Shown here one piece after another: positions 17,758 through 35,380 of a stretch of 49,193 nt of DNA (its first letter is position 1; the number at the start of each line of letters is the position of its first letter). Source of the stretch: Verrucomicrobiota bacterium (GTDB taxonomy: Bacteria; Verrucomicrobiota; Verrucomicrobiia; Limisphaerales; J093); the NCBI GenBank assembly GCA_022710935.1, contig JAKLFY010000048.1, forward strand, positions 1 to 49,193, in the 5' to 3' direction. A program made the translations under genes and the position numbers. The notes below the pieces were generated by a model, which had not been told where the DNA came from, did not search any database, and was given only the letters and a program-made list of their open reading frames with translations.

Positions 17758-17782
17758 TTGACATTATTCGCTATATGGCGAA
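17758..17782 (+). promoter_or_regulatory. ArsR-type promoter/operator in front of arsR1
   Basis: TTGACA (17758-17763) is followed after three bases by the 16-bp palindrome TTCGCTATATGGCGAA (17767-17782), whose outer five bases match perfectly. The same arrangement (TTGACA, 3 nt, 16-bp box) occurs at 21961-21985 in front of the second arsR. A box placed just after the -35 would let a bound ArsR dimer block RNA polymerase. The -10 is weak. Confidence 0.7.
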
Positions 17783-17793
17783 CAGTGCCAGAA

Positions 17794-18159
17794 ATGCGTG
17801 AGTTCATGAATGTGACCAAGGCGCTGGCGGACGCCAACCGTGTCCGCATGGTGCTGGCGTTGCGCGGGCGGGAGTTGTGCGCCTGCCAGATCACGGAGCT
17901 GTTCGAGTTGGCCCCTTCCACCATGTCCAAGCACTTGTCGATCCTCTACCAGGCGGGGCTGGTGGATTCGCGCAAGAATGGCCGCTGGGTTTACTACTCG
18001 CTGCCGGGCAGGAAGGCGGCGGTGCCCGTTCGTCATGCCCTCGAATGGGTCTGCGACTCCCTGGCCGAGAATGAAAGAATCGCCGACGACGCCAAACGGC
18101 TGAAACAGCTCCTGAAATTGGATCCCAGCGAGATCTGCCGACGCCAATGCCAAAGATGA
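17794..18159 (+). CDS. arsR: ArsR-family metalloregulator 1
   Basis: 121 residues if started at the ATG at 17794 (an ATG at 17806 is also possible; an ATG-less TTG frame extends to 17758 through the operator and is not used). The winged-helix core contains ALADANRVRMVLALRGRELCACQITELF; C29 and C31 form the CxC pair typical of As(III)-sensing ArsR proteins, next to the recognition helix APSTMSKHLSILYQAGLV. Expected to repress the operon and release DNA on binding arsenite. The gene's end overlaps the arsC start by 13 bases. Confidence 0.92.
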   Translation: MREFMNVTKALADANRVRMVLALRGRELCACQITELFELAPSTMSKHLSILYQAGLVDSRKNGRWVYYSLPGRKAAVPVRHALEWVCDSLAENERIADDAKRLKQLLKLDPSEICRRQCQR

Positions 18160-18584
18160 TTGTTCTCTTTCTCTGCACCGGAAACTCGTGTCGCAGCCAG
18201 ATGGCGGAAGGCTGGGCGCGCCATCTGAAGGGCGGCGTCATCGAGCCGTATTCGGCGGGTATCGAGAAGCACGGGATGAATCCGCACGCGGTCAAGGTGA
18301 TGGGCGAAGCGGGGGTGGACATCTCGAAGCACTACTCCAAGACGGTCGAAGAGATCGGCCCCGTCCACTTTGACTACGTCGTGACCGTGTGCGGCCACGC
18401 GCATGAGCATTGTCCCCTCTTCCCCGGCAAAGCCAAAGTGGTACACGTGGGGTTCGAGGATCCGCCCAGGCTCACGCAGCACGTGCCGGACGGGGAGGAG
18501 AAACTGGCGGTGTATCGGCGAGTGCGGGATGAGATCCGCGCCTTTGTCGAGACGCTGCCGGAGGGATTGAGGCGTCTGGAGTGA
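18147..18584 (+). CDS. arsC: Arsenate reductase, thioredoxin-type
   Basis: 145 residues of the low-molecular-weight phosphatase-like ArsC family. CTGNSCRSQMAEGWA contains the C10-x5-R P-loop (C10 nucleophile, C15), and VCGHAHEHCP supplies C82 and C89, which correspond in position to the redox cysteines of the classical thioredoxin-coupled arsenate reductases. It reduces arsenate to arsenite in the cytosol, producing the substrate for ArsM and Acr3 encoded downstream. It overlaps arsR1 and is followed after 10 bases by a Cys-motif protein. Confidence 0.93.
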   Translation: MPKMIVLFLCTGNSCRSQMAEGWARHLKGGVIEPYSAGIEKHGMNPHAVKVMGEAGVDISKHYSKTVEEIGPVHFDYVVTVCGHAHEHCPLFPGKAKVVHVGFEDPPRLTQHVPDGEEKLAVYRRVRDEIRAFVETLPEGLRRLE

Positions 18585-18594
18585 GGGGGAGGCG

Positions 18595-18885
18595 ATGAAC
18601 GCGACTGTCGAGCACCGTCTCGCGTGCTACGGCGCCATGTTTCCCGACTTCAGCCGACTGAAGCTGAAGGAGAAACTGGAAGGGCAAGCGTTTACCGCAC
18701 AGGTCATGAATTCGGGCACCGGTGCGCAGGGACGGAAGCTGGAGGTCAGACAGGACGCGTGGGAGAAATGCGTGGGGTGCCCGGACTATCGCACCTGCTA
18801 CGACCTCAGTCTGGCGAAGCTCCTGATGAACGACATCCTCATGAACACGATGGTGGCCAACCCGTGGGTCGGCGTTGGCGATTGA
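18595..18885 (+). CDS. Small Cys-motif protein of the arsenic operon
   Basis: 96 residues, soluble, preceded by a good ribosome site (GAGGGGGAGG). The only distinctive feature is WEKCVGCPDYRTCYDLSLAKLL (about residues 56-77), giving a CxxCx5C triad, plus one Cys at position 11. Three closely spaced thiols could bind As(III) or zinc. It is locked between arsC and the PEP-mutase-like gene with gaps of 10 and 0 bases, so it belongs to the operon. I do not recognise a named family. Confidence 0.8.
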   Translation: MNATVEHRLACYGAMFPDFSRLKLKEKLEGQAFTAQVMNSGTGAQGRKLEVRQDAWEKCVGCPDYRTCYDLSLAKLLMNDILMNTMVANPWVGVGD

Positions 18886-19746
18886 ATGAACGGAACCGCG
18901 ATTGTTATGAACTTGAGCAAGAGACTCAAAGATCTCCTGACCGCTAAAGAGACGCTGGTCATGCCTGATGCCTACGATGCGATGAGCGCCCGAATCATCG
19001 AGCAGGCCGGGTTCAAGGCGGTCCAGTGCTCCGGCTACAGTTTCTCGGTCGCCGCCTGCAAGAGGCACGAGATTGATATCGGTTTGGAGGAGAACGTGGC
19101 GATCACCGCGAAGATCGTTGAGGCTGTGTCCGTTCCAGTGATGGCCGATGGCGAGGACGGCTTCGGGGATGTCGCACAGATCCCGAACACGATCGAACGC
19201 TACGTGAGGGTGGGGGCAGCGGGCATCAATCTCGAAGACCAGGTCCTGGATCGGGCGCCAGGTACCCGAATCATTGATTCGGGTCTGATGCAGGAGAAGA
19301 TCAGGGCGGCAAGAAGCGCGGCCAAAGCGGCTGGGAACCCTGATCTCGTGATCAACGGCAGAACCGACGCGCTGAAGGCGCTTCACACAAAGGAGGAGGG
19401 GCTGCAGGAGGCGATCCGGCGGGGCAATCTGTATCTGGAGGCGGGCGCGGACCTGGTGTTTGTGACGGCGGTGAGCACGCTGGAGGAAGTGCGCGAATTG
19501 GTGAAAGCAATCCACGGTCCACTGAGCGTTGCCGCTGGACTGGCGTACAATCTCAACGCCTTTTCGATCAATGACTTAACAGAGTTGGGTGTTGCGCGGG
19601 TGAGCCTGCCCTCGATTGCGATCAGTGCGACCATCAAAGCGCTGTTGGAGTCGACGGGCGCGCTCAAATCAGGCGTCTTCACCAGTCTTATCGCGAAGAA
19701 GTGTTTGTGCAGCCCCCAGGATATTGGACGCTTGATTGGAGCCTGA
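18886..19746 (+). CDS. PEP-mutase/isocitrate-lyase family enzyme
   Basis: 286 residues from the ATG that follows the upstream stop codon directly; an ATG at 18907 is an alternative. Family features: LVMPDAYDAMSARIIEQAGF near the N terminus, the Mg-binding strand VMADGEDGFGD (family form ADADTGYG), INLEDQ (metal/substrate glutamate) and VINGRTDAL. The mobile gating loop after EDQ reads VLDRAPGTR: it has neither the KxCGH cysteine of (methyl)isocitrate lyases nor the KxNSF of classical PEP mutase, so the reaction is open. The family makes or breaks C-C and C-P bonds of 2-oxo/enol-pyruvate compounds. Its place between arsC and arsM suggests an arsenic substrate (for example arsonopyruvate-like chemistry), which is inference. 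Confidence 0.85.
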   Translation: MNGTAIVMNLSKRLKDLLTAKETLVMPDAYDAMSARIIEQAGFKAVQCSGYSFSVAACKRHEIDIGLEENVAITAKIVEAVSVPVMADGEDGFGDVAQIPNTIERYVRVGAAGINLEDQVLDRAPGTRIIDSGLMQEKIRAARSAAKAAGNPDLVINGRTDALKALHTKEEGLQEAIRRGNLYLEAGADLVFVTAVSTLEEVRELVKAIHGPLSVAAGLAYNLNAFSINDLTELGVARVSLPSIAISATIKALLESTGALKSGVFTSLIAKKCLCSPQDIGRLIGA

Positions 19747-19812: not shown

Positions 19813-20733
19813 ATGAGTGATTCGAGGTCCCCTATCGACTCGGAAGCGGTGCGGCAGAAGGTCCGTGAGGGCTACGGCAAGATTGCCGGGAGCGGCGGCT
19901 CGTGCTGCGGAGCGGCGCCGACCTGCTGCGAGGCGGCGCCGACCTGCTGCGGTTCAACGCCGGTGGCTTCCGAGGACCTGGCCAAGCATATCGGGTACAG
20001 CGCTGAAGAACTGGCTGCGTTGCCCGAGGGCGCGAACATGGGCCTTTCGTGCGGGAATCCCAACGCCCTGGCGGCACTGCAAGCCGGGGAAGTGGTGCTG
20101 GACCTGGGAGCCGGGGGCGGGTTCGACGTGTTCATTGCCGGCCGGAAGGTGGGACTGACCGGCCGAGCCATCGGCGTGGACATGACGCCGGAGATGCTCG
20201 GCAAAGCCCGGAAGAACCTCAGCACGTATCGTGAGCGGACGGGGTTGGACAACGTCGAGTTTCGGCTGGGCGAAATCGAGCATCTGCCGGTGGCGGACGC
20301 CAGCGTGGACGTCGTCATCTCCAATTGCGTCATCAACCTCTCGCCGGACAAGCCGCAAGTGTGGCGGGAAATTGCGCGGGTTCTGAAACCGGGCGGGCGG
20401 GTGGCGGTGTCGGACCTGGCGCTGCTCAAGCCGCTGCCAGCGGCCATCGTCGAGAGCGTCGAAGCGCTGGTGGGCTGCTTGGCGGGGGCAGTGCTGGTTT
20501 CGGAAACGGAACGTATGGCCAAGGAGGCCGGCCTCGTGGACATCGTGACCACGGCGAAGTCGGCCTACATCGACGGGATGGTGGACTGGCAGGACCCGCT
20601 GTATCAGAAGATCGTAGCCCATTTGCCGGCAGGGACCAAACCGAGCGATTACGTTACCAGCTTGGAAATCACGGGGCGGAAAGACCGTGGGGACTTACCT
20701 GGGAGCAATCCGTCGCGAAGCTGCTGCGGCTAG
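19813..20733 (+). CDS. arsM: Arsenite S-adenosylmethionine methyltransferase
   Basis: 306 residues. SAM-binding loop LDLGAGGGFDVFIAG (97-111), the arsenic-binding cysteines C80 (LSCGNP), C172 (SNCVINL) and C222 (VGCLAG), placed as in known ArsM proteins, and a Cys-rich N-terminal insert with three CC pairs (31-46) plus a terminal CCG. It methylates arsenite to mono-, di- and trimethyl arsenicals in the cytosol. The N-terminal CC pairs arise from a tandem DNA repeat of about 21 bases around 19905-19950. Methylated trivalent products would be substrates for the ArsP-type permease downstream. Confidence 0.95.
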   Translation: MSDSRSPIDSEAVRQKVREGYGKIAGSGGSCCGAAPTCCEAAPTCCGSTPVASEDLAKHIGYSAEELAALPEGANMGLSCGNPNALAALQAGEVVLDLGAGGGFDVFIAGRKVGLTGRAIGVDMTPEMLGKARKNLSTYRERTGLDNVEFRLGEIEHLPVADASVDVVISNCVINLSPDKPQVWREIARVLKPGGRVAVSDLALLKPLPAAIVESVEALVGCLAGAVLVSETERMAKEAGLVDIVTTAKSAYIDGMVDWQDPLYQKIVAHLPAGTKPSDYVTSLEITGRKDRGDLPGSNPSRSCCG

Positions 20734-20766: not shown

Positions 20767-21873
20767 ATGAGCAATCACGCTACTGCCACGAGTGCGGCCG
20801 CCGGGGCGGCGCCGCCCAAACGCCTGGCCTTCTTCGAGCGGTACCTGACCGTGTGGGTGTTGGCGTGCATGGTCGTGGGCGTGGGCTTCGGCAAACTGCT
20901 GCCCGACGTCACGACAGCATTGAGCAAGCTGGAGTTCGGTCAAGGGTCGCAAGTGAACGTGCCGATTGGCGTGCTGCTCTGGCTCATGATCTACCCGATG
21001 ATGCTCAAGGTGGATTTCAGCGCCATCGGCGGCATCGCGAAACGACCCAAGGGCCTGCTGGTGACGCTGTTCGTGAACTGGCTGGTGAAGCCGTTCAGCA
21101 TGGCGTTGCTGGCCTGGGTATTCATGCAGCATCTGTTCGCGGCGTGGATCAGCCCGGGGATGGCGAAGGAATACACGGCGGGACTGATCATCCTGGCGGC
21201 GGCGCCCTGCACGGCGATGGTCTTCGTCTGGAGCTACCTCACCGATGGGGATCCGGCGTACACACTGGTTCAGGTGGCGGTCAACGACCTGATCATGCTG
21301 GTGGCCTTCGCGCCCATCGTCATGTTCCTCTGCGGTGTGGCGGACGTCATCGTGCCGGCCAAGGTGCTGATCACCTCGGTGGTCGTTTTCATCGTCATCC
21401 CGCTGACGGCGGGGTGGCTCACCCGCACAAGCCTCCTCAAGTCGCATGGCAAGGAATGGTTCGAGCAGAGGTTCCTGCCGAAGTTCCATCCAGTGATGAT
21501 CGGGGCGCTGCTCCTGACGTTGGTGCTGATCTTTGCGTTCCAGGCCGAGAACCTGACCACGCGTTGGTTCGCGGTGCTGCTCATCGCCGTACCTATCATC
21601 ATCCAGGTCTATTTCAACTCTTCGCTGGCGTATCTGCTGATGCGCTGGTTCAAGGTGCCGCACGATGTGGCGTCGCCGGGGGCGCTGATCGGTGCGAGCA
21701 ACTTCTTCGAGTTGGCGGTGGCAGTGGCCATCACCCTGTTTGGCGCGGGTTCGGGCGCAGCGCTGGCAACGGTGGTGGGCGTGCTGGTCGAGGTGCCGGT
21801 GATGCTGTCCGTGTGCCGGATCTGCAATCAATCTCGTGCGTGGTATCAAAAGACGGCAGGCGCCGGAGAATGA
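20767..21873 (+). CDS. acr3: Arsenite efflux permease Acr3
   Basis: 368 residues, about ten membrane helices. The Acr3 signatures are present: ERYLTVWVLACMVVGVGFG at the start, IYPMMLKVDF, LAAAPCTAMVFVWSYL with the essential cysteine, DGDPAYTLVQVAVNDL and GASNFFELAVAVAI. It is a proton-driven As(III) exporter of the inner membrane (BART superfamily). It follows arsM by 33 bases and closes the first transcription unit; a new promoter lies 88 bases downstream. Confidence 0.95.
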   Translation: MSNHATATSAAAGAAPPKRLAFFERYLTVWVLACMVVGVGFGKLLPDVTTALSKLEFGQGSQVNVPIGVLLWLMIYPMMLKVDFSAIGGIAKRPKGLLVTLFVNWLVKPFSMALLAWVFMQHLFAAWISPGMAKEYTAGLIILAAAPCTAMVFVWSYLTDGDPAYTLVQVAVNDLIMLVAFAPIVMFLCGVADVIVPAKVLITSVVVFIVIPLTAGWLTRTSLLKSHGKEWFEQRFLPKFHPVMIGALLLTLVLIFAFQAENLTTRWFAVLLIAVPIIIQVYFNSSLAYLLMRWFKVPHDVASPGALIGASNFFELAVAVAITLFGAGSGAALATVVGVLVEVPVMLSVCRICNQSRAWYQKTAGAGE

Positions 21874-21985: not shown

Positions 21986-21998
21986 GTTGCGCCTCGTC

Positions 21999-22319
21999 AT
22001 GGCAAGCAAACGGTCGGTCACGCAATTCAAAGCCCAGGCCCAGGTGTTCAAGGCGCTGGCGCATCCGGGGCGTCTGCTCATGCTGGACGAATTGTCGCGA
22101 GGCGAGCGCTGCGTTTGCGAACTCGCCGCGTTGGTCGGGTCGGAGATGCCGACGGTGTCGCGGCACCTGTCCGTGCTCCGGAATGCCGGGATCGTGGACG
22201 ACGAGAAGCGGGGCGCCCAGGTATTCTATCGGCTGGTCACGCCGTGCGTGATGAACCTCTTCCAGTGCGTGGCGTCGGTCCGGGAGCAGGAGGCAAAATC
22301 CTCCGCGCGGCAGGGCTGA
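21999..22319 (+). CDS. arsR: ArsR-family metalloregulator 2
   Basis: 106 residues, distinct from ArsR1 (about one third similar by eye). Winged helix with KALAHPGRLLMLDELSRGERCVCEL; C38 and C40 form the CxC sensor in helix 3, and EMPTVSRHLSVLRNAGIV is the recognition helix. A further Cys pair (PCVMNLFQC) near the C terminus may take part in sensing. It probably governs its own promoter and the permease operon downstream. Two ArsR genes with nearly identical operators suggest cross-regulation. Confidence 0.92.
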   Translation: MASKRSVTQFKAQAQVFKALAHPGRLLMLDELSRGERCVCELAALVGSEMPTVSRHLSVLRNAGIVDDEKRGAQVFYRLVTPCVMNLFQCVASVREQEAKSSARQG

Positions 22320-22388: not shown

Positions 22389-23735
22389 ATGAGTGCGTTC
22401 GCTGCCACAACCTCAAACGACGGTCTCAGCCGCGAACTCAAACTCTTTTCCTGGATGGCCGGCGTGTTCCTCCTCGCCTACTTCCTGCCCCTCTCCAATC
22501 CGAAGGTCACGGCGGCGATCCAGGAGGCGTTCAAGCTGCTGCAATGGTATGCGCGCAACCATACGCTGGCCTGCGTGGTGCCCGCGCTGTTCATCGCCGG
22601 GGCGGTCATCACGTTCCTCTCCCAGGCCTCGGTCATGCGCTACCTGGGACCGAACGCGAACAAGCCTCTGGCCTACAGTGTCGCGTCCGTGTCGGGCGGC
22701 ATCCTGGCGGTCTGTTCGTGCAGTGTGCTGCCGGTGTTTGCGGGCATCTACCGGCTGGGCGCGGGGCTGGGTCCGGCCAGCGCGTTCCTGTACTCGGGTC
22801 CGGCGATCAATATCCTCGCCATCTTCCTCACGGCGCGGGTGCTGGGCTTTTCCATCGGTCTTTGGCGGGCAATTGGAGCGATCGCGTTCGCCTTCATCAT
22901 CGGTCTGTTGATGGCCGTGATCTTCCGGCGTGAGGAACGCGAGCGCATCGAGGCGCAGGCGGTGCTGCCAGAGCCGGAGGCGCCGAAACGCCCGCTGTGG
23001 AAAACCTCGATCTTCTTCGCCTGTCTCGTGGCATTCCTGGTCTTCAGCGACTGGTACAACCCGGGGGATGTGATCGTGCGCCCCGTCGCTGGCGGTTCGT
23101 TCGGGGCGGTGTCGCTTCAGGAGACCCACGATGAAGTGATGTTTCAACTCAAAGAGGACTGGGCCGGGCATCGGAGTGGGGACAAGATCACGTTGGCCAA
23201 ACGCGACCTCGCGAGGGTGGAGGAGGCCAAGACGTGGGTGATTGCCGTCCATCACGCTCGCTGGTATCTGGCTGGCGTGATGGGCCTGGCGGTGTTGCTG
23301 ACGACCTGGCGTTGGATGGACCGCGAGGAAGTGGGCCAATGGATGCACAACACCTGGGACTTCGCCAAGCTGCTGGTGCCGCTGCTGTTTGGTGGCGTGT
23401 TTGTGGTTGGCTTCATTGGCGCGCTGATCCCGGACGCTTACGTCGCCTCGCTCGTGGGCGACAATTCGGTCAAGTCCAACCTCGTTGCCAGTGTGATCGG
23501 TGCGTTCTGGTATTTCGCCACGTTGACGGAAATCCCGATCTGCGAAGCGCTGGGGAAGCTGGGCATGGCACCCGGGCCGATGCTGGCGCTGTTGCTGGCT
23601 GGACCGGCGGTTTCGCTGCCGAACATGCTCGTTCTCCGGAGCGTGATGGGCACCAAGAAGATGCTCGTGTTCACCGGGTTGGTCATCGTGATGGCCGCGA
23701 TCACGGGCATGGTTTACGGAGTGTGGAGGACGTGA
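22389..23735 (+). CDS. ArsP-type permease (organoarsenical efflux)
   Basis: 448 residues of the PF03773 predicted-permease family. Helices occur around 19-37, 55-75, 95-130, 145-175, then a large polar loop (about 180-295) and three or four further helices. Diagnostic motifs are GGILAVCSCSVLPVFAGIY (Cys pair of the family) and FSGP-like LYSGPAINILAIFLTARVLGF, repeated in the second half as SLVGDN and ALLLAGPAVSLPNMLVL. ArsP members export trivalent methyl and aryl arsenicals; general family members are uncharacterised. Position behind an arsR and next to arsM fits efflux of methylarsenite. Confidence 0.85.
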   Translation: MSAFAATTSNDGLSRELKLFSWMAGVFLLAYFLPLSNPKVTAAIQEAFKLLQWYARNHTLACVVPALFIAGAVITFLSQASVMRYLGPNANKPLAYSVASVSGGILAVCSCSVLPVFAGIYRLGAGLGPASAFLYSGPAINILAIFLTARVLGFSIGLWRAIGAIAFAFIIGLLMAVIFRREERERIEAQAVLPEPEAPKRPLWKTSIFFACLVAFLVFSDWYNPGDVIVRPVAGGSFGAVSLQETHDEVMFQLKEDWAGHRSGDKITLAKRDLARVEEAKTWVIAVHHARWYLAGVMGLAVLLTTWRWMDREEVGQWMHNTWDFAKLLVPLLFGGVFVVGFIGALIPDAYVASLVGDNSVKSNLVASVIGAFWYFATLTEIPICEALGKLGMAPGPMLALLLAGPAVSLPNMLVLRSVMGTKKMLVFTGLVIVMAAITGMVYGVWRT

Positions 23736-24068: not shown

Positions 24069-25481
24069 ATGAGTGCGCTGCACGATAACGCCGATCTTGC
24101 CGTCCTGGGCGGGGGGCCGGGAGGCTACGTCGCAGCTTTGCGCGCGGCCCAGCGCGGCGCGCGGGTCGTCCTGATCGAGAAGGAACGGGTTGGCGGGACG
24201 TGCCTCAATGTGGGCTGCATCCCGACCAAGGTGCTCACGACAGTCACTGAACTCCTGCTTCGCGCGAAGCAGTCAGCGCGATTCGGGCTATCGATCCCAC
24301 AGGCCACGGTAGACTTGCCCACCCTCATGGCCTACAAGCGGAGCACCGTGGAGCAGCTTGTTGGTGGCGTGGAACAACTGCTGAAGGCACGTCGCGTCAC
24401 GCTCATTCGCGGCGAGGCACAGCTCATAAAGCCAGACACACTTTCGATTGCTGATGGGTCAGGGGGCCGTCGGGAGGTTTCGGCCCAGCGGGTGATCCTT
24501 GCGCCGGGGTCCGTCTCCGCGACGCCGCCGGTTGCGGGATGCAACCTGCCGGGCGTGATGACGAGCACGGGGGCACTAGACATCCAGACGGTACCGTCCC
24601 GGTTGGTCGTGGTGGGCGGAGGCGTGATCGGGCTGGAATTCGCCTGCATTTACGAAGCGCTGGGCAGCCAGGTGAGCGTCCTGGAGATGACCCCGACGAT
24701 TCTACCGGCTGCAACCGATGAGGCCATCGCGAAACGGCTACACATGTTGCTTCGGCGGCGGGGGATGGAGATCCAGACCAGCACGGTCGTCCAAAGGATT
24801 GAGCGAATCGGCGAGACCTTGCGCGTGTTCGCGGAAACGGCCGGTGCTGAGACGACGGCCGACTGCGAGCGGGTCTTGATTGCGACTGGTCGTTGGCCGA
24901 ACACGCAGGGGATGGGCTTCGCTGAACTGGGCTTGCGTATGAACGGACGGGCCATTGCCGTAGACGAGCGATTGGCGACGAACCTGCCCAACGTGTGGGC
25001 CGTTGGCGACGCAATCGGAGGGTGGATGCTGGCGCACAAGGCGATGGTGGATGGCCGCGTCGCGGCCGAGAATGCAGCCGGCGGTCAGCGGCAAGTCGAT
25101 TATCGTTCCGTGCCAAACGTGATCTTCACGCGGCCAGAGGTCGCGAGCGTGGGCTTGACCGAAGCCCAGGCGCGCACTCAGGGCGCGGAGGTCAAGGTCA
25201 CGCAGTTTCCGTTCTCGGCCAACCCTCGTGCGCGTATCCTCGATGAATCTGAGGGCGTGGTCCGGCTGATCTGCGAGGCTGGGAGTGGCCGCATCCTCGG
25301 AGTCCACATGCTGGGGCCGCACGTCACCGGCCTGATCGCGGAGGGGGCACTGGCGGTGCAAACGGGCGCGACCGCGGACGACCTGGCGTGGACCACGCAC
25401 GCGCACCCGACGCTGCCCGAAGCGATGTTGGAGGCCGCGCTTGGCTTCCGCGATGCCGCCATCCACATTCACACCCGGTGA
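24069..25481 (+). CDS. lpd: Dihydrolipoamide dehydrogenase
   Basis: 470 residues. FAD-binding GGGPGGYVAALRAAQ (about 14-28), redox-active GGTCLNVGCIPTK (cysteines about 44 and 49), NAD-binding VVVGGGVIGLEFACIYEALG, second FAD motif NVWAVGDA and the catalytic base pair HAHPTLPEAM (His-x4-Glu) at the dimer end. It oxidises dihydrolipoyl groups with NAD+, or reduces lipoyl disulfide in reverse. No E1/E2 or glycine-cleavage genes are nearby; the next gene encodes a lipoyl carrier, so this Lpd is probably dedicated to that carrier rather than to a 2-oxo-acid complex. Confidence 0.93.
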   Translation: MSALHDNADLAVLGGGPGGYVAALRAAQRGARVVLIEKERVGGTCLNVGCIPTKVLTTVTELLLRAKQSARFGLSIPQATVDLPTLMAYKRSTVEQLVGGVEQLLKARRVTLIRGEAQLIKPDTLSIADGSGGRREVSAQRVILAPGSVSATPPVAGCNLPGVMTSTGALDIQTVPSRLVVVGGGVIGLEFACIYEALGSQVSVLEMTPTILPAATDEAIAKRLHMLLRRRGMEIQTSTVVQRIERIGETLRVFAETAGAETTADCERVLIATGRWPNTQGMGFAELGLRMNGRAIAVDERLATNLPNVWAVGDAIGGWMLAHKAMVDGRVAAENAAGGQRQVDYRSVPNVIFTRPEVASVGLTEAQARTQGAEVKVTQFPFSANPRARILDESEGVVRLICEAGSGRILGVHMLGPHVTGLIAEGALAVQTGATADDLAWTTHAHPTLPEAMLEAALGFRDAAIHIHTR

Positions 25482-25495
25482 GGAAAGGAGACACG

Positions 25496-25957
25496 ATGCC
25501 AGATTATCTCGAAACGACGCTGGACAAATTCACCTTTCGGGTGGCCAAGGATCGGCTTTACACAGGACGAGGCGCTTGGGTCTTCTGGATGCGGCCCGAA
25601 GCGCCCACCCGCGTCCGCATCGGCCTGGCTGACTATCTCCAGCAGCGCAGCGGCGACGTCGCCTTCGCCACAGTTCAGCCGGTGGGGACCAAGTTGGTCG
25701 CGGGCGACAGGCTGGCTGAAATTGAGACCATCAAGGCGATGGTGGAGCTGCCGTCGCCGGTGAGCGGGACGGTGGCGGAGGTGAACTCAGCCCTGGATAC
25801 GACGCCGGAAGTCATCAACCAGGACCCCTATGGCAACGGTTGGCTGGCGGTGGTCGAAACGACGGCTTGGGAAATTGAGCGGGCGAAGCTGGTCGAACCG
25901 GAGGCGTACTTCTCGGCCATGCGGGTCGAGGCGCTTGAGGAGTTGAAGAGGCTGTGA
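25496..25957 (+). CDS. GcvH-like lipoyl carrier protein
   Basis: 153 residues starting at the ATG with a strong ribosome site (AAAGGAG). The H-protein fold is visible: RVRIGLADYLQQRSGDV (entry strand and helix), VGTKLVAGDRLAEIETIKAM with the predicted lipoyl-lysine K80, LPSPVSGTVAEVNSAL, and NQDPYGNGWLAVVE. In ordinary GcvH the lysine is in ESVKA; here it is ETIKA. The N-terminal 30 residues (TLDKFTFRVAKDRLYTGRGAWVF) are longer and different. There is no gcvT/gcvP in the window, so this is a GcvH-like protein with another job, operon-linked to Lpd (14 bases) and overlapped by the DGC gene. Confidence 0.9.
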   Translation: MPDYLETTLDKFTFRVAKDRLYTGRGAWVFWMRPEAPTRVRIGLADYLQQRSGDVAFATVQPVGTKLVAGDRLAEIETIKAMVELPSPVSGTVAEVNSALDTTPEVINQDPYGNGWLAVVETTAWEIERAKLVEPEAYFSAMRVEALEELKRL

Positions 25958-26382
25958 ACACCGACGAGACGAAGGTGGTCGTGGTGCCGTGCAGCGGCAT
26001 CGGGAAACCGTTCGGCAGCGTGAGCCGCGAGGCGGCCTACGACCTGTGCGATGAACTACGGCCGGGGAAGACGCGGCTGGTGGCGCTGGCCAAATTGGTG
26101 ACGGGTGAAGCTACGGCCCAAGAACTCATTCGCCGACATCCGGCGGTGACCATTGATGGCTGCAAACAAATGTGCGCCGCCAAGATGGTCAGGCAGAGCG
26201 GCGGCACGGTGGCCCACGAGGTGGCCGTGCTGGACGTGTTCCGGCGTCACAAGGATCTCAAGCCTGAAGGCATTGCCGAGTTGAATGAGGCTGGGCAGAA
26301 GCTGGCCCGCGTCCTGGCCGAGGAGGTTGCTGAGCGCCTCGACGGTTTAGAGCAAGCCGCGAAAGGAGTAAGTCATGTCTGA
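25954..26382 (+). CDS. DGC-family putative zinc-binding protein 1
   Basis: 142 residues starting from the GTG that overlaps the previous stop. Family features: VVVVPCSGIGKPFGSVSREAAYDL, with C13, and TIDGCKQMCAAKM, the Asp-Gly-Cys motif that names PF08859, plus a second Cys four residues on. The pattern of four conserved acidic/Cys residues suggests a zinc or other soft-metal site; biochemical role is unknown. It is a paralog of the N-terminal half of the next gene, with which it overlaps by eight bases. Confidence 0.85.
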   Translation: MNTDETKVVVVPCSGIGKPFGSVSREAAYDLCDELRPGKTRLVALAKLVTGEATAQELIRRHPAVTIDGCKQMCAAKMVRQSGGTVAHEVAVLDVFRRHKDLKPEGIAELNEAGQKLARVLAEEVAERLDGLEQAAKGVSHV

Positions 26383-27100
26383 GGTGCTTGAACGGAAAGT
26401 GGGCATCGTCGCGTGCAGCGGGGAGGAGTTGGCCGAGGGCGCTGTCGCGCGGTTAGCCGCCCTGAAGGTGCTCAATGAACTGCGCCCCCGGGACACGGTG
26501 ACCATCTGTCTGCCCCTCTTCCTGGCGGGTGGCGCCGGGGACCGCGCCTTCGCCAAACTGCACCCCACGATTACCGTGGACGGCTGCGACCTGCGCTGCG
26601 CCGCGCGTGGCACGGAGAAGTATTCGAGCAAGCCGGCCGCCAGCCTGGTGGTGAACGAGCTTGTGGCTGAATGTGGCCTGGAGAAGCCCGAAGGACGGCG
26701 GCGATTGAATGCCGCAGGACAGAAGGCGGTGGAGCTCACGGCCGAACGCCTGGCAGCTCTGGTGGACCAAGCGCTAGGCAAGGAAGCTGGGACCTCGGCA
26801 GAGGCCGAGGCGTCGGCAAGCAGGCCCAACGGGGAGGAACGTGAGGTCGCCTGCTCTTGCGGATCAGGGGTCGCGGTGACGAAGCTCACCATCAATGGCC
26901 AGACGGTCGAGTTGGTGGCGCTGCCGCTCATCTTCCGGCACTTCCGGGAAAAGGGGCGGGGTCAGGACGAGGAAGCCGCGCGCGACCTGTTCGAGACCGT
27001 GAAAGTCTACAATGCCGTCCCGGAGGAAGCCGAGGCAAGTTACCGCGAGGTGGTGCTGCGAGAGTACGCCGCCTACTGCCAAAAGGAGATGAAGCCATGA
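26375..27100 (+). CDS. DGC-family protein 2 with extra C-terminal domain
   Basis: 241 residues. Residues about 1-130 repeat the DGC fold (VGIVACSGEELAEGAVARLA and TVDGCDLRCAARG), and after an Ala/Glu-rich linker (about 130-155) a second domain of some 85 residues begins with ACSCGSGVAVTKLTINGQTV and ends in REVVLREYAAYC. The CSCG turn and the terminal Cys could form another metal site. The second domain is absent from the neighbouring DGC protein; I do not recognise it with confidence. ATGA overlap with the OsmC gene. Confidence 0.82.
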   Translation: MSEVLERKVGIVACSGEELAEGAVARLAALKVLNELRPRDTVTICLPLFLAGGAGDRAFAKLHPTITVDGCDLRCAARGTEKYSSKPAASLVVNELVAECGLEKPEGRRRLNAAGQKAVELTAERLAALVDQALGKEAGTSAEAEASASRPNGEEREVACSCGSGVAVTKLTINGQTVELVALPLIFRHFREKGRGQDEEAARDLFETVKVYNAVPEEAEASYREVVLREYAAYCQKEMKP

Positions 27101-27549
27101 GCCGCACGGCGACCTACCACACGACGGTCCGCTGGACCGGAGAACACTGGGGCCATCTGATCATGGGCAACGGTCCGGAGATGAAGTTCTCGGCTCCGCC
27201 GGACGCGCACGGACACGCCGGAGTGGTGACGCCGGAGGACGCCTTTGTGGCGGCGGCGAACACCTGCGTGATGATGATGTTCATTTGGGCGACCGAGCGC
27301 TTCAAACTGAAGCTGGTGTCTTTTGAGTGCCGCACGGAGGGCACCAAACTCATCGAACTTGACCGCACAGAGATTTTTACCCGACTGCATTTCCGCCCGG
27401 TGATCCGCATCGCGGCGGCGGGCGAGCCACGGGCGGCCGTCGAGGCCCGTACCCGGCGAGCGCTCCAGGCGGCGCGGAAGTACAGCCTGGTGGCGAATTC
27501 GGTGAAGTCGGAAATCGTCATCGAGCCGGAGATCACTATTGACGAATGA
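27097..27549 (+). CDS. OsmC-like thiol protein
   Basis: 150 residues. OsmC fold: RTATYHTTVRWTGEHWGHLI, then SAPPDAHGHAGVVTPEDAFVAAANTC with the peroxidatic-type Cys, and LVSFECRTEG with the second Cys on the following strand. OsmC/Ohr proteins reduce organic hydroperoxides, and Ohr-type enzymes are recycled by lipoylated proteins and Lpd rather than by thioredoxin; the neighbouring lipoyl carrier and Lpd fit that chemistry well. Whether the substrate here is a peroxide or an arsenical is open. Confidence 0.88.
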   Translation: MSRTATYHTTVRWTGEHWGHLIMGNGPEMKFSAPPDAHGHAGVVTPEDAFVAAANTCVMMMFIWATERFKLKLVSFECRTEGTKLIELDRTEIFTRLHFRPVIRIAAAGEPRAAVEARTRRALQAARKYSLVANSVKSEIVIEPEITIDE

Positions 27550-27626
27550 AGGGTACAACGACCGTCGCACCCCAGGTCCGACATCTGCGGACCAAGCGGA
27601 CTGACAATGAACCTGCGAAACGAACC

Positions 27627-28403
27627 ATGAGCACAAAACAGATCGGCTTCGTCGGCGGCGGGCGCATCACGCGCATCTTCCTGGACGGCTGGAAGAGAGC
27701 GAACGCCCTGCCCGCCAACATCGTGGTTAGCGATTGCAGCGCGGAACCGCTCGCGAGGCTCAAAGCGCGGTTTCCTGCCATCAACACGGTCCAAGGCAGC
27801 GGCGCGGCCGCTTCGCAGGACCTCGTGTTCCTGGCCGTCCATCCGCCGGTGATGGCTGAGGTGGCATCGGCGATCAAGGGCAGCCTGAAGCCTGGGACCC
27901 TGGCCGTGTCGCTGGCCCCCAAGTTCACGATCTCCAAGCTCACCGAGCTGCTCGGCGGTTTCGCCCGTCTGGCGCGTGTCATTCCGAACGCGCCGTCGGT
28001 GGTGAACGTCGGCTTCAACCCGGTGGCCTTCGGCCCGGCCCTGACCGTCGCGGACAAGGCGGAACTCACCGGCTTGCTGACGCCACTGGGCGAGTGCCCG
28101 GAGGTCGCCGAGGAGAAGTTGGAGGCCTACGCTCTGTTGACCGGCATGGGGCCGACCTATTTGTGGTTCCAACTGCAAGCCCTGCGCGAAGTCGCGGCTG
28201 GGTTCGGGTTAAGCGAGGTCGAGATCACGCCGGCCCTGAAACGCATGGTCTGCGGCTCTGCGCGCACGTTGCTGGAATCCGGCCTGACACCGACCGAGGT
28301 CATGGATCTCATTCCCGTGAAGCCGCTCGCTGAAATGGAGCCGCAAGTTGCCGAGATGTACCGGACGCGGCTGCCCGGCCTCTACCAGAAGATCAAGCCG
28401 TAA
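27627..28403 (+). CDS. ProC-like NAD(P)-dependent dehydrogenase
   Basis: 258 residues from the ATG at 27627; an ATG at 27546 overlapping the OsmC stop is possible but its 27 extra residues are not family-like. Rossmann start QIGFVGGGRITRIFLDGW, VFLAVHPPVM, RVIPNAPSVVNVGFNPVAFG (ProC equivalent: MPNTPA) and LTGMGPTYLWFQLQAL. The SGSGPAY/SPGGTT pair of true ProC is degenerated to TGMGPTY and absent, and the genuine proC lies at 420-1235, so proline synthesis is unlikely. The reductase may act on an unknown small substrate of the arsenic pathway. Confidence 0.82.
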   Translation: MSTKQIGFVGGGRITRIFLDGWKRANALPANIVVSDCSAEPLARLKARFPAINTVQGSGAAASQDLVFLAVHPPVMAEVASAIKGSLKPGTLAVSLAPKFTISKLTELLGGFARLARVIPNAPSVVNVGFNPVAFGPALTVADKAELTGLLTPLGECPEVAEEKLEAYALLTGMGPTYLWFQLQALREVAAGFGLSEVEITPALKRMVCGSARTLLESGLTPTEVMDLIPVKPLAEMEPQVAEMYRTRLPGLYQKIKP

Positions 28404-28445
28404 TCACACATCACGAATCACGTATTACGCATTACACGCTCAACG
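28404..28445. repeat. Iterated ATCACG/ATTACGC tract
   Basis: The gap between the ProC-like and thioredoxin genes reads as repeats of CACATCACG, AATCACGTATTACGCATTACACG. It is a low-complexity, non-coding iteration. No promoter is evident in it. Confidence 0.5.
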
Positions 28446-28450
28446 AATCT

Positions 28451-28957
28451 ATGAAAACGCCCATCAAAATCCTCATCGTCGCCGCGCTCGCCGTGGTCGT
28501 TGTCGGCGCCGTGGCCCTTAAGAAGAGCAACACTCCAACCGAATCTCAGGCCCTAACCCCTGCGGTCGTTGCCAGTGGACCGGCTGATGATGTGGTGGCC
28601 CAAACGGCCCCGGTTGCTGAAACCAGCAAGGCCAGTCCAGCCACCGCCGTGAAGTTGCCCCGGCTGGTGGACCTGGGGGCGGGCAAGTGCATTCCCTGCA
28701 AGATGATGAAACCGATTCTGGATGAGTTGAAGCGCGACTATGCCGATCGTTTCATCACCGAGTTCATCGACGTCTGGGAGAATCCCGCCGTCGGAAAACA
28801 ATACGGCATCGAGATGATTCCGACGCAGATCTTCTATGACGCCGACGGCAAGGAACGTTTCCGCCACGTCGGTTTCTATGGCAAAGAGGACATCCTGGGT
28901 AAGTGGAAAGAACTGGGCGTGGACCTCAGTGCCAAGTCACCCGCCCCGGCGCAGTGA
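28451..28957 (+). CDS. Membrane-anchored thioredoxin-like protein
   Basis: 168 residues. One N-terminal hydrophobic helix (IKILIVAALAVVVVGAVAL) anchors or exports the protein; a Pro/Thr/Ala linker (25-68) leads to a thioredoxin domain with DLGAGKCIPCKMMKPIL (C80-x2-C83) and MIPTQIFYDADGKE (cis-Pro). Periplasmic side is expected. It precedes the cytochrome gene by 64 bases. It may pass electrons from the CcdA-like ArsG permease (33.5 kb) to periplasmic targets. Confidence 0.9.
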   Translation: MKTPIKILIVAALAVVVVGAVALKKSNTPTESQALTPAVVASGPADDVVAQTAPVAETSKASPATAVKLPRLVDLGAGKCIPCKMMKPILDELKRDYADRFITEFIDVWENPAVGKQYGIEMIPTQIFYDADGKERFRHVGFYGKEDILGKWKELGVDLSAKSPAPAQ

Positions 28958-29021
28958 TCCTCGCGTGGCACCAAGACTCCGGTCCGAAACCCAATCCAGG
29001 CCAACTGAAGCAACCCACATC

Positions 29022-31538
29022 ATGAAAACGCAAAGAGACTCCCACCCGCGTCTCCACCTCAGCGGCGGATTACTTTTCATGCTGATCGGCGCGGCTGTTG
29101 TGTCCGACAGAGGGCCGGCCCGTGCTGCCACCACGACTCCGGAGCCCAAGCGTGTGCAAGGCGTCTGCCCGCCTTTCATGCTGAGGGATGAGCAGGGCAA
29201 CGTGATCGACCCGGTCAAGGGCCTCAACGCCAACGCGCCGTATTCGCCCAAGCAGACCTGTGGCGCTGCAGGTTGTCACGACTACGACAAGATTACCCAG
29301 GGTTATCACTTTACACAGGGCAAGGGCGAAGCGGTTCCGCCGGACATGGCGGCGCGGTATCAGTGGGTCTCCTCGCCCGGCAACTACGGCGGCACCTGGT
29401 GTTCGCCCGCACCTCTCTACCGCTACCTGGCGCCCAAGACGAACGCGTCGGCGACAACCATCGACATGACCTCGGCGACGTTCATCACGGCGGGGTGCGG
29501 CAGTTGCCATCCGGGCGGCGGACCGCTCGAGTTGGATCGCGAGGGCAAACGCTACGACACCTGGATGCGGGATCCGGCCAGCGGCTTGACCCCCGGCGGC
29601 GACAACCGATTCGACGGCGACTATTTCAAGACGCGCTGGTCGGATTCCGGGGTGATTGAAGCGGACTGTCTCCTCTGCCACCTGCCCGAATACAACATCA
29701 AGAAGCGCAACGACCAACTCACCAAACTGAACTTTCGTTGGGCAGCCACCGAAGGCGCAGGTTTTGGTCTGGTTTCCGGGATTGTCGCGAGCAATCAACC
29801 GCCGCAAGTCGCCTACGATCTGAAGAACTTCGATGCGGGCGGCAAACTCAAGGTCCGGGTCGTCACCCAACCGAGGAACGAGACCTGTCTCAATTGCCAT
29901 GCCCAGCCCGGGTGGAAGAAGCGCGGCGCGGACTATCGTGGCCGCACCGACGTCCATTTTCGCGCCGGTCTCCGTTGTGTGGATTGTCACCCCGCCGGCA
30001 GCAATGCGGACGATCCGAGCATCCAGGGACGCGAGGTGCATCAATTCGCCAAGGGTGACGACCCCGGCGGCCGAGTGCGGGACGATCTGGACAACAGCGT
30101 GCGCGATTGTACGACCTGCCACACGACCGGCCAGTTCGGGGCGCCGGTGGCCACCCACCCGTGGCTGCCCCCGTTGCACCTCGATCGGATCGCCTGTCAG
30201 ACCTGCCACACGCCGGAAAAGAAGGTCATGCCGATCCAGGTGCAGGCCAGCGACGTCTTCAACCGCGACGCCTGGATTGACCCGGGCGGCAAGCAACTCT
30301 GGACCTTTTACGGCGTGGACGGCGTTTACCGCAACCATTACGGCATCCTTAAGGTGATGGGCTACGATGATAAACCGACCGAGGTGTTCCAGCCCGTCCT
30401 GGCGGACTACAAAGGCAAGATCTACCCGGTGAACCGCATCCACTCGACCTGGCCGGGCATCGAAACGCCGGGGCAACCGGGCCTGATGCAGCCGCGTCCG
30501 CCGGACATCCACAAGATGTGGAAGGCCCACTTCGACGATGCGAAGCAGTATCCGGAGTTGGCAAGGATCAAGGATGACGATGGGGATGGCGCGCTGGAGA
30601 TCAATCGCCCGGAGGAGGTGGACACACTGATCGCCGCGGTGACGCAACACCTGTCGTCGCTGAACTACGACCTGAAAGGCAAGCGGGTGGTGTGGGTCTC
30701 GAGCGACCGGGTGTATCACTCGGGAACGGAGTATCGCACGCTCGAGAAGGCCGAATGGGAAGCGACGCCCTACGCCAACGTGCACAAATACAATCACGAC
30801 ATCTCGCCCGCCCGCGCCGCGCTCGGATCGGGTGGCTGCACCGATTGCCACGCGACGAAGTCGGAGTTCTTCCACCGCGCCGTACTGCTGACGGCATTCT
30901 CACCCGAGGATGGGGGTCCACGCTGGACACCCAATTTCGCCGTGCTCGGCTACTCGCCCTTGTCGGTCCGCCTGGGCGCATTTCGCGAGGCCACCCTCAA
31001 GCCATGGACTTACACTCTCGTGGCTTTGGTCGTGGGTTTGGTCGTGTTGCTGGCGTTGCGCGGGGTGGCCCTGCGCCACAGCGTCGTCACCCCGGGTACG
31101 CTGGCGAAGCTCTCGTGGCTGGCTCTTGCGGGCTTGGTGTTGGGCGGGATTGTGGTGGCACGGTCAACCGAGTTGGCTGAGTACATGACCGTGCGCCGGT
31201 TCACCCTTGACGCGGCCCATTTCTGGATCGGCGTGGGCATTCTGCTGCTCGCGGTTGTCCTGGCCCTTCAGCATCCCACGAAAACGGCGACGCAATGCAC
31301 ACCACCGGGCTTGGCACGCATCCTGTGGGGACTCATCGTGTTCACCGGACTCTGTGGCGGGCTGATGCTGGTGAAGCTCAGTTGGTTCGAGACGCTTGTT
31401 CGCTTCGCCTACACCGGGTTCGACGTTGGCTTGTTCTTGTTGATCCTTGTTGCGGCTGTGGACCTGATCCGCCGGTTGGCCGGCATGCCGTGTCCTCGAG
31501 CAATCGAAGCCACTAGGACGAAACCGGCGAGCACGTGA
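29022..31538 (+). CDS. Octaheme c-type cytochrome with C-terminal membrane domain
   Basis: 838 residues: signal peptide (LHLSGGLLFMLIGAAVV..ARAA), heme sites CGAAGCH (80-86, a CX4CH), CGSCH (159), CLLCH (216), CLNCH (289), CVDCH (319), CTTCH (363), CQTCH (392) and CTDCH (606), i.e. seven CXXCH plus one CX4CH, and about five membrane helices after residue 660. No CXXCK site is present, so it is not a nitrite-reductase-type octaheme enzyme; the CX4CH plus seven CXXCH set recalls the octaheme tetrathionate-reductase family (from memory). The long insertion between hemes 7 and 8 (400-600) is rich in aromatic residues. It should carry electrons between the inner membrane and the periplasm; its stop overlaps the porin start. 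Confidence 0.9.
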   Translation: MKTQRDSHPRLHLSGGLLFMLIGAAVVSDRGPARAATTTPEPKRVQGVCPPFMLRDEQGNVIDPVKGLNANAPYSPKQTCGAAGCHDYDKITQGYHFTQGKGEAVPPDMAARYQWVSSPGNYGGTWCSPAPLYRYLAPKTNASATTIDMTSATFITAGCGSCHPGGGPLELDREGKRYDTWMRDPASGLTPGGDNRFDGDYFKTRWSDSGVIEADCLLCHLPEYNIKKRNDQLTKLNFRWAATEGAGFGLVSGIVASNQPPQVAYDLKNFDAGGKLKVRVVTQPRNETCLNCHAQPGWKKRGADYRGRTDVHFRAGLRCVDCHPAGSNADDPSIQGREVHQFAKGDDPGGRVRDDLDNSVRDCTTCHTTGQFGAPVATHPWLPPLHLDRIACQTCHTPEKKVMPIQVQASDVFNRDAWIDPGGKQLWTFYGVDGVYRNHYGILKVMGYDDKPTEVFQPVLADYKGKIYPVNRIHSTWPGIETPGQPGLMQPRPPDIHKMWKAHFDDAKQYPELARIKDDDGDGALEINRPEEVDTLIAAVTQHLSSLNYDLKGKRVVWVSSDRVYHSGTEYRTLEKAEWEATPYANVHKYNHDISPARAALGSGGCTDCHATKSEFFHRAVLLTAFSPEDGGPRWTPNFAVLGYSPLSVRLGAFREATLKPWTYTLVALVVGLVVLLALRGVALRHSVVTPGTLAKLSWLALAGLVLGGIVVARSTELAEYMTVRRFTLDAAHFWIGVGILLLAVVLALQHPTKTATQCTPPGLARILWGLIVFTGLCGGLMLVKLSWFETLVRFAYTGFDVGLFLLILVAAVDLIRRLAGMPCPRAIEATRTKPAST

Positions 31539-32950
31539 TGGCGCAATGGGCCAAACCAACGCTCATTCGCGGCAAGCATGCGGATTCCCGAATCGGCAGG
31601 CCCCCCGGAGGTTGCGTCGGATCGCTGGCGTGGCTGACGCTGGCGGCCCTGGCGTCGATGGCAGCGGACTCCGCGGTCCCAACAGCCAAGCCTTGGTATT
31701 CGCCCCTGAAGGACATCGAGGTCGGGCCAGGGAAACTGGACTTTGGCCTGAACGTCCGCACGCGTTACGAATACCTCGACAACTTCAGCATCCTGCATTA
31801 CGGCACGGGCGCCGAGGACGATGTGCTCCTCCTCCGAACGCGTCTCAACGCAGACTACCGTTTCACCGAACAGGCGCACACCTTCGTCGAGTTTCAAGAC
31901 GCGCGCTATTGGTTGAGCGACCTTGCTCTCTCCGACTTCGGTGAGTCGTGTTCCTACTACGATGAGTTCGATTTGCGGCAGGCGTATCTCGAATGGAAGC
32001 ACATGGGCAAATCGGCTTTCGGCGTGAAGCTCGGTCGCCAGATTCTGCTCTATGGCGATCGCCGTCTGTTCGCCCCCGCCGAGTGGGGCAACGTGGGCAA
32101 CTACTGGTGGGACAGCGCCAAGCTCTATTACGACACGGATACGTTCCAGGTAGACGCCTTCTACGCCCAGCGGGTGTTGAGCGAACCGAAAGACTGGAAC
32201 TTCGATCACTGGCCGTATCACGTCGGCGGAGTGTATGCCCACGTGAAGCAACTCCCGGTCACGTTGGATGCCTTCTACGTGGTGAAACACGACTGGTCCG
32301 GGAGCACACGTGGGGAGAGTGGCACGGGAGACGAGACCCGCCATACTTTCGGCCTATTCTCCGAGCAGCCCGCTGGCAAGGGCTGGGACTACGGCCTCTT
32401 CGCGGCCGGGCAGGTAGGGCAGTATGGGCGTGACGACATCGAGGCGTTCGGCGTGATCGCGCGTGGCGGCCACACGTTCAAGACCGACTGGAAGCCGCGC
32501 GTCGGCTTTGAGTTTAACTATGCCAGCGGGGACCGTGATCCAAACGACGGCGTGGCCGGCACGTTCGACGGTGTCTTTGGCGCGATGGACACTCCCTACG
32601 GCTGGATGAACGTAGTGAGCTGGAAGAACCTGGAGGACTACGCGCTCAACTTCAGTGTGCAACCGGCGAAGACCGTGAAACTGGGCGTGGATTACCATTA
32701 CTTCCGGCTCTCGCAATCACGCGACGCCTGGTACTGGGTCAATGGCAAGCCGGAACGCCGTGACCCTGCCGGCCAAGCCGGACAAGACCTCGGTCACGAG
32801 TTGGATGTGATCCTGCGCTGGCAGATCAACAATGAATTGGAGCTCCTCTTCGGTTACGCCCGGTTCTTGGCCGGCGATTTCGTGCGGAACACCCCCGGCA
32901 ACGGCCAGGATGCCAACTGGGCCTTCGCGCAACTGACATACAACTTCTGA
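31538..32950 (+). CDS. Outer-membrane beta-barrel protein (alginate-export-like)
   Basis: 470 residues with a long N-terminal export region (hydrophobic GSLAWLTLAALASMAA about 27-42) and then amphipathic strands rich in aromatics: LDFGLNVRTRYEYLDNF, AHTFVEFQDARYWL, FDLRQAYLEWKHM, FGVKLGRQILLYGDRRLF, and a final WAFAQLTYNF ending in Phe, the outer-membrane assembly signal. The GRQ...GDRR region is typical of alginate-export/AlgE-like porins (PF13372). It starts within the stop codon of the octaheme gene, so cytochrome and porin are made together; a porin-cytochrome pair or a solute pore for arsenicals are both possible. Confidence 0.87.
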   Translation: MAQWAKPTLIRGKHADSRIGRPPGGCVGSLAWLTLAALASMAADSAVPTAKPWYSPLKDIEVGPGKLDFGLNVRTRYEYLDNFSILHYGTGAEDDVLLLRTRLNADYRFTEQAHTFVEFQDARYWLSDLALSDFGESCSYYDEFDLRQAYLEWKHMGKSAFGVKLGRQILLYGDRRLFAPAEWGNVGNYWWDSAKLYYDTDTFQVDAFYAQRVLSEPKDWNFDHWPYHVGGVYAHVKQLPVTLDAFYVVKHDWSGSTRGESGTGDETRHTFGLFSEQPAGKGWDYGLFAAGQVGQYGRDDIEAFGVIARGGHTFKTDWKPRVGFEFNYASGDRDPNDGVAGTFDGVFGAMDTPYGWMNVVSWKNLEDYALNFSVQPAKTVKLGVDYHYFRLSQSRDAWYWVNGKPERRDPAGQAGQDLGHELDVILRWQINNELELLFGYARFLAGDFVRNTPGNGQDANWAFAQLTYNF

Positions 32951-32954
32951 CAGC

Positions 32955-33548
32955 ATGAAATCACACACCCCGATCATCTTGCTGCTGGCCTTGGTGGCCG
33001 GCTTCGCGGCATTCTCCTCGTTCAGGCGCGGGGCAGATTCAGGCGGGTCGGGTCGGACAGTAGGGGTGTGCTGTCCGTTGGCAACCGCGCTTGAGATGAA
33101 ACCAATGCTTCCGCCCACGGACTCCGCGACGAGCGAGTCGAGCGTCGAGACCACCCGCTTACACGTTATCGCGTACTATTTTCACGGGACGGTCCGTTGC
33201 GACACCTGTCTGCTGATCGAGAATTTGGCCAAAGCGGTGATCGAGGAGCAGTTCAAGGCGGACATGGACGCCAGACGACTCACCTTCCTGCCGGTCAACT
33301 ACGACCTGCCGGAAAACGCGCACTTCCTGAAGACCTACAGCTTACCTTGCCCATCCCTGGTGCTGGTCCGACAGACGGACGGGCAGGATGCAGGCTGGAA
33401 GCTGCTTGGCGACGTCTGGCAGTTAGTGCACGAACCTCCCGAGCTCAACCGTTACGTCGCAGCCGAGGTGCAGGCATTCCTGAGCGGCGAGGAGCAGCAG
33501 ACCGGCAGTGCCCCCCCGCAACCGCCATCTGCCGCGGAGCAGCGTTGA
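32955..33548 (+). CDS. arsF: ArsF-family (nitrophenyl-arsenical reductase subunit-like) protein
   Basis: 197 residues, N-terminal export helix (TPIILLLALVAGFAAF), a CC pair at 39-40, then the family core VIAYYFHGTVRCDTCLLIE with C82-x2-C85 and FLPVNYDLPENAHFLKTY, SLPCPSLVLV. The fold is thioredoxin-like. ArsF takes its name from the arsEFG genes linked to reduction of nitrophenyl arsenicals in Shewanella (from memory). Here it stands directly before the ArsG-like permease (3 bases), the same neighbourhood. Most likely a periplasmic or membrane-tethered thiol carrier reduced through ArsG. Confidence 0.75.
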   Translation: MKSHTPIILLLALVAGFAAFSSFRRGADSGGSGRTVGVCCPLATALEMKPMLPPTDSATSESSVETTRLHVIAYYFHGTVRCDTCLLIENLAKAVIEEQFKADMDARRLTFLPVNYDLPENAHFLKTYSLPCPSLVLVRQTDGQDAGWKLLGDVWQLVHEPPELNRYVAAEVQAFLSGEEQQTGSAPPQPPSAAEQR

Positions 33549-33551
33549 TTT

Positions 33552-35351: not shown

Positions 35352-35380
35352 GCGGGCGGCAAAGGGGAGATCCGAACGTG

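Follow-up and report, generated by a model that had tools for sequence, protein, structure and literature searches.

The DNA considered here, called the window, is a stretch of 49,193 nucleotides from a Verrucomicrobiota bacterium (assembly GCA_022710935.1, contig JAKLFY010000048.1, positions 1 to 49,193). It contains an ars operon whose genes lie on one strand, separated by short gaps, in the order arsR-arsC-orf96-enzyme gene-arsM-acr3-arsR-arsP. Its features are as follows.

17758-18159, + strand: arsR, regulator of the ArsR/SmtB family (Pfam HTH_5, 1e-14; NCBIfam HTH_metalloreg, 86 bits)
18147-18584, + strand: arsC, thioredoxin-type (LMWPc) arsenate reductase (TIGR02691, 147 bits, below the cut-off of 174; Pfam LMWPc, 77.9 bits)
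18595-18885, + strand: orf96, small Cys-containing, ars-linked protein (homologues in loci L096 and L097; no Pfam or NCBIfam match)
18886-19746, + strand: enzyme of the PEPM/ICL superfamily, start possibly at 18907 (Pfam PEP_mutase, 214.5 bits; AF2 pLDDT 93.7; Z about 33 to CPPM, MICL and PEPM structures)
19027-19035, + strand: codons for Cys48-Ser49-Gly50, the QCSG motif (Cys48 specific to the family, by alignment)
19243-19269, + strand: short gating loop VLDRAPGTR, residues 120-128, following NLEDQ (by alignment to PEPM, PPH, MICL, PDP and CPPM)
19813-20733, + strand: arsM, arsenite SAM methyltransferase (NF008823, 306.6 bits, cut-off 263)
20767-21873, + strand: acr3, arsenite efflux transporter (TIGR00832, 384 bits, cut-off 283)
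21987-22319, + strand: second arsR (HTH_metalloreg, 93 bits)
22389-23735, + strand: arsP, permease of the ArsP_1 family (Pfam ArsP_1, 255 bits)

The enzyme gene is an open reading frame encoding 286 amino acids, and its G+C content by codon position matches that of its coding neighbours. The closest homologue of the enzyme begins at Met8 (18907), and residues 1-6 are the sole stretch of the AF2 model with pLDDT below 50. The true start is likely to be that methionine. The initial annotation saw here an enzyme of the PEP-mutase/isocitrate-lyase family inside an ars operon, and the PF13714 score and the co-directional ars genes bear this out. Its placement of the gene directly between arsC and arsM has to be amended, because orf96, with 96 codons, separates the gene from arsC.

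That small reading frame is preceded by a strong Shine-Dalgarno-like GGGGGAGGCG. Homologues of it were found in two further ars loci, L096 (1191-1418) and L097 (5213-5445), in the latter adjoining acr3. The former reads arsR-arsC-orf96-arsM, lacks the enzyme gene, and so provides a natural "empty" comparison. Thus orf96 occurs in ars operons both with and without the enzyme gene.

What sort of enzyme is it? Against Pfam PEP_mutase (PF13714) it scores 214.5 bits, where the cut-off is 31.5. One further match in the window's genome reaches 29 bits, below that cut-off, and the enzyme gene is thus the only clear member of PF13714 in the genome. The AF2 model has the superfamily fold, with a Z score of 33 to 4iqd, 9hra and 1pym. 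The small subfamilies all lie within a few units of one another, however (Z about 29-33 to every one), so the fold alone cannot pick a function. The NCBIfam equivalogs are all far under their cut-offs: 135 bits against 354.4 for prpB, 76.8 against 319.55 for TIGR02320 (PEP mutase), and 72.6 against 374.4 for TIGR02321 (phosphonopyruvate hydrolase).

In the tree, 31 members form one group (support 83) beside 2ze3 and 2qiw, apart from MICL, from PEPM/PPH and from CPEP phosphonomutase and the petal death protein. When the solved relatives were searched with the family profile, 2ze3 came out best, at 133 bits. Clustering with housekeeping carboxy-PEP or oxaloacetate enzymes, the outcome that the initial annotation had set against action on an arsono-organic acid, was seen neither in the tree, which did not include the oxaloacetate decarboxylase PA4872, nor in the profile search, where PA4872 was the weakest of 22 listed solved relatives (77.5 bits), a rank that tells against an enzyme of the PA4872 type. 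The enzyme is a member of a distinct subfamily of the PEP-mutase/isocitrate-lyase superfamily, with a clade of its own, sister to the 2ze3/2qiw group. A literature search for PEP mutase or isocitrate lyase together with ars genes found no description of this subfamily, which is apparently undescribed.

By alignment, residues D88, E90, E117, S49 and R159 of the active site coincide with the metal and carboxylate positions of the reference enzymes and are invariant, and the S49-G50 pair is also kept in the core. I take D88, E90 and E117 to be Mg2+ ligands, and S49-G50 and R159 to bind carboxylate. The loop reads ...NLEDQVLDRAPGTRIID..., with neither the KRCGH of the lyases nor the K-x-N-S of PEPM, in agreement with the earlier reading that it lacks both the catalytic lyase cysteine and the PEP-mutase motif. 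VLDRAPGTR and FVTA stand where PEPM has its gate loop and His190. PEPM and PPH handle the phosphonate with K120, N122 and H190. All three are absent from the enzyme, as are the KRCGH loop and the FPEA glutamate of the lyases. With those phosphonate-handling residues missing, it need not follow that the enzyme acts on an arsono group.

Then there is Cys48, of the QCSG motif. It is found in 32 of the 33 members with a letter at the site (L054 has Val), where other subfamilies have I, T, G, S, L or V. Among the members E62, E90 and D91 are invariant. From its position beside the Ser-Gly pair, Cys48 would be expected to touch the substrate. It could bind As(III), for the handling of which it is the only candidate I found, or serve as an acid/base; it could also be a plain acid/base or structural residue.

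These comparisons dispose of the familiar activities. PEP mutase is ruled out by the TIGR02320 cut-off, the tree, and the missing K-x-N-S loop and His190; phosphonopyruvate hydrolase by the TIGR02321 cut-off, the tree and the missing D-T-S loop; methylisocitrate or isocitrate lyase by the prpB cut-off, the tree and the lack of a cysteine in the loop; and CPEP mutase by motifs and tree. With PEP mutase and phosphonopyruvate hydrolase the enzyme shares the fold (Z about 32-33) and the core metal and carboxylate positions, but not the loops or the histidine just named. With PrpB, petal death protein, 2,3-dimethylmalate lyase and CPEP phosphonomutase it shares the fold and core motifs, but not that group's KRCGH/KKCGH loop or FPEA-type glutamate. 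The nearest solved relatives, DFA0005 of Deinococcus ficus (2ze3) and NCgl1015 of Corynebacterium glutamicum (2qiw), are 30-32% identical to it and have in common with it the short gate loop, the Asp/Glu metal pair, and the N-x-E-D and N-(A/G)-R-T-D motifs. They differ in having Thr or Ile at the site of Cys48, in lacking the QCSG, ADGEDG and AAG-x-x-YN motifs, and in falling separately in the tree.

When 84,980 genomes were scanned with the family alignment, 33 loci besides the window came to light, though the scan relied on two short peptide patterns, so that members without these motifs will have been missed and the family may look too uniform. The subfamily spans about a dozen bacterial and archaeal phyla. 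By record names the loci belong to Verrucomicrobiota, Lentisphaerota, Kiritimatiellota, Planctomycetota, Armatimonadota, Bacillota, Bacteroidota, Pseudomonadota, Thermodesulfobacteriota, Myxococcota, Spirochaetota, Fibrobacterota and Methanobacteriota. Several members come from outside metagenome bins (Clostridium sp. LS, Natronincola peptidivorans, Geotalea sp. SG265, Azospirillum rugosum and Flammeovirga sp. SJP92), which makes the idea developed below testable at the bench. A search of IMG/VR found no member of the subfamily, and the matches in plasmid records were all below 38% identity. In one Verrucomicrobiia bacterium (L057, 8001-8411) a homologue 79% identical to the enzyme is truncated to about 130 amino acids and lies between arsC and arsM.

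The neighbourhoods of these loci were examined by using the window's ars proteins as tblastn queries against the 8 kb around each. An acr3, arsC or arsM gene was found within that distance at 10 of the 33 loci (L028, L031, L032, L038, L039, L043, L055, L056, L057 and L058), or 11 of 34 counting the window, in at least seven phyla. ArsP-like permeases lie close to two more (L030 and L049). At L031 the enzyme gene immediately follows arsR-arsP, and at L058 an ArsP_1-type permease and ArsN2 are near it. Ars genes were near none of the 12 control loci, which hold other PEP_mutase members from the same order (Fisher p 0.04). An unbiased clustering of neighbouring ORFs gave a SAM methyltransferase as the commonest true partner (14 of 34 loci, adjacent in 8), and in nine of the 14 it is ArsM. 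Partners that an organoarsenical product would lead one to expect, such as a phosphonopyruvate-type decarboxylase or an aminotransferase, are not conserved beside the subfamily's genes.

Three loci, from Clostridium, Cyclobacteriaceae and Natronincola, share a cassette of MarR-type regulator, methyltransferase and enzyme (L043, 1302-3344; L050, 6885-8873; L053, 1984-4020). The methyltransferase has a Cys-rich C-terminus and scores far below the ArsM cut-off, and the regulator has cysteines before an AQCHAL stretch. Together the three genes have the look of a separate unit for sensing metalloids.

The linkage to ars genes is scattered over the tree. Well-supported branches force at least seven changes, and the ars-linked members cluster no more strongly than shuffled labels do, so the ars context is not one inherited cluster. 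This fits the repeated joining of a compatible function, and equally repeated hitch-hiking. To separate the two, I asked whether ArsM occurs anywhere in the carrier genomes (E <= 1e-50). It does in 22 of 32 carriers; in the window's phylum at large the figure is 39 of 240 genomes (Fisher p 2e-9), a base rate drawn from one phylum while the carriers span many, with habitat uncontrolled and related carriers not independent. For carriers in which the enzyme gene lies away from ars genes the count is 13 of 22 against the same base rate (p 2e-5), and for carriers of the window's own phylum it is 7 of 7. In ten of the 32 no ArsM was found, and among the carrier genomes several are incomplete. The arsenic connection first noted at a single operon thus extends beyond it, and the family is probably linked to arsenic in some functional way. 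The subfamily is real, well conserved and arsenic-associated, within a known superfamily.

What might it do? The subfamily travels with arsenic detoxification and probably serves above all the methylation and organoarsenical branch (ArsM, ArsP). In members of the superfamily whose mechanism is known, the enolate or oxyanion of a 2-oxo acid is held on Mg2+ while a bond at C3 is made or broken. The retained core residues suggest, by homology, that the same Mg2+ enolate chemistry operates here, and the link to ArsM and ArsP suggests, by context, an arsenical substrate or product. I propose, tentatively, an arsenic-serving enzyme that carries out a carbon-arsenic step on an organoarsenical of pyruvate type, at its C3. 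Mg2+ and a 2-oxo acid would be bound as elsewhere in the superfamily, by D88, E90 and E117, with S49-G50 and R159 for the carboxylate; an enolpyruvate intermediate would form and a bond at C3 be made or broken; and Cys48 would hold trivalent arsenic, or act as the acid/base in place of the absent loop cysteine. The reaction I favor is cleavage or formation of the C-As bond. The arsenic link is well supported, while the substrate, including the arsono-organic acid that the initial annotation would have the enzyme form, rearrange or split, is something I infer. That about two thirds of the members are not beside ars genes counts against the proposal, as do the ten carriers in which ArsM was not found, the lack of a conserved decarboxylase or aminotransferase partner, and the missing phosphonate-handling residues.

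An alternative view, close in standing to this one and itself quite possible, is that the substrate is an ordinary 2-oxo or 2-hydroxy acid, on which the enzyme works as a C-C lyase or decarboxylase. Arsenite inhibits lipoate-dependent 2-oxo-acid dehydrogenases, and an enzyme of this kind, recruited to ars islands, would help arsenic-stressed cells to repair their central metabolism or to reroute it, with no organoarsenical involved. Most fold neighbours whose function is known are C-C lyases, 2ze3, the best solved relative by profile, was crystallised with alpha-ketoglutarate, the phosphonate-handling residues are absent, and many members live in non-ars surroundings. Against it, the enzyme lacks the KRCGH loop and the FPEA glutamate of the lyases, and the conserved neighbours are methyltransferases and ars genes, with no metabolic partner gene among them.

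It is unlikely that the gene is a mere passenger, mobile and frequently caught up in ars islands that move horizontally, but with no arsenic function. Its patchy distribution and scattered phylogeny are what one would expect of such a gene, as are the truncated copy in L057 and the existence of an equivalent operon, L096, that does without it. Against this, ArsM exceeds its base rate even in carriers whose gene sits away from ars genes, the gene recurs next to methyltransferases, and its product's active site is strongly conserved.

That the enzyme is a true mutase, a counterpart of BsnN converting arsenoenolpyruvate to arsonopyruvate or the reverse, would suit a PEPM fold in an ars operon and a reaction proposed in Streptomyces (PMC12159101), but it is highly improbable, since BsnN belongs to another superfamily (phosphoglycerate mutase), the window's genome has no BsnM-type EPSP synthase, K120/N122 of the PEPM loop and H190 are missing, and TIGR02320 gives 76.8 bits against a cut-off of 319.6.

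The Streptomyces precedent deserves a closer look, for the initial annotation cited from there a proposed PEP-mutase-like step in C-As bond formation. According to a review of bisenarsan biosynthesis (PMC12159101), the cluster encodes an EPSP synthase (bsnM), a phosphoglycerate mutase (bsnN) and a phosphonopyruvate decarboxylase (bsnJ), and BsnN is proposed to form arsonopyruvate. A bsn-like cluster on the linear plasmid of Streptomyces sp. NBC_01708 (L077, 833-10840) contains genes for ArsR, an ArsP-type (ArsP_1) permease, aroA, gpmI, a class-I glutamine amidotransferase and a phosphate transporter; its gpmI product consists of Metalloenzyme and iPGM_N domains, a superfamily other than PEP_mutase. 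The window's genome has a single AroA, whose gene adjoins a prephenate-dehydrogenase-like ORF, and a single MurA, so it has no BsnM to make arsenoenolpyruvate. The precedent therefore does not carry over, and a bisenarsan-type pathway is rejected here, there being neither homology to BsnN nor a BsnM. What the two systems have in common is an arsenic cluster and, in bisenarsan, a proposed step that rearranges a pyruvate-arsenic compound (PMC12159101). With the mutase coming from another superfamily, the analogy is one of chemistry, not descent. A plasmid of Streptomyces scopuliridis (L076) carries a PEPM beside genes for aconitase and isocitrate/isopropylmalate dehydrogenase; this PEPM was considered as a possible BsnN and dropped, and no mutase neighbour was found beside the aroA genes of S. 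microflavus.

The proposed carbon-arsenic step can be carried further. Repeated adjacency to ars genes and the ArsM-bearing genomes suggest an unrecognised step in arsenic metabolism. If the link holds, about a dozen bacterial and archaeal phyla contain a new accessory arsenic gene, masked at present by the label "isocitrate lyase/PEP mutase family protein". It would point to arsenic methylation being coupled to a carbon-arsenic (or arsenic-stress) step that lies apart from the SAM-based and Streptomyces routes. In its fullest form the proposal would have a widespread, unrecognised family of arsenic enzymes making or breaking the C-As bond at C3 through a Mg-enolate, with As(III) held by Cys48, independently of SAM, radical SAM and BsnM-BsnN, and feeding or undoing the products of ArsM. 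That whole conjunction is a doubtful proposition.

The arsenic island continues past arsP. The adjoining block, at 24069-27549 of the window, encodes proteins resembling lipoamide dehydrogenase and the lipoyl protein GcvH, along with a pair of DGC-domain proteins and one OsmC protein. Of these, the GcvH-DGC-DGC-OsmC set is found again at L038, with 58-83% identity, where it adjoins both acr3 and the enzyme gene, and DGC-type proteins are also found at L031 and L032. To meet a lipoyl dithiol system inside an arsenic island is suggestive. Further along, at 27546-35893, lie genes for a thioredoxin-like protein, a multihaem-cytochrome-like protein, an outer-membrane protein of the Alginate_exp family, a DsbD_TM protein, an FMN reductase with a signal-like N-terminus and a rhodanese protein, which could be a redox or respiratory part of the island.
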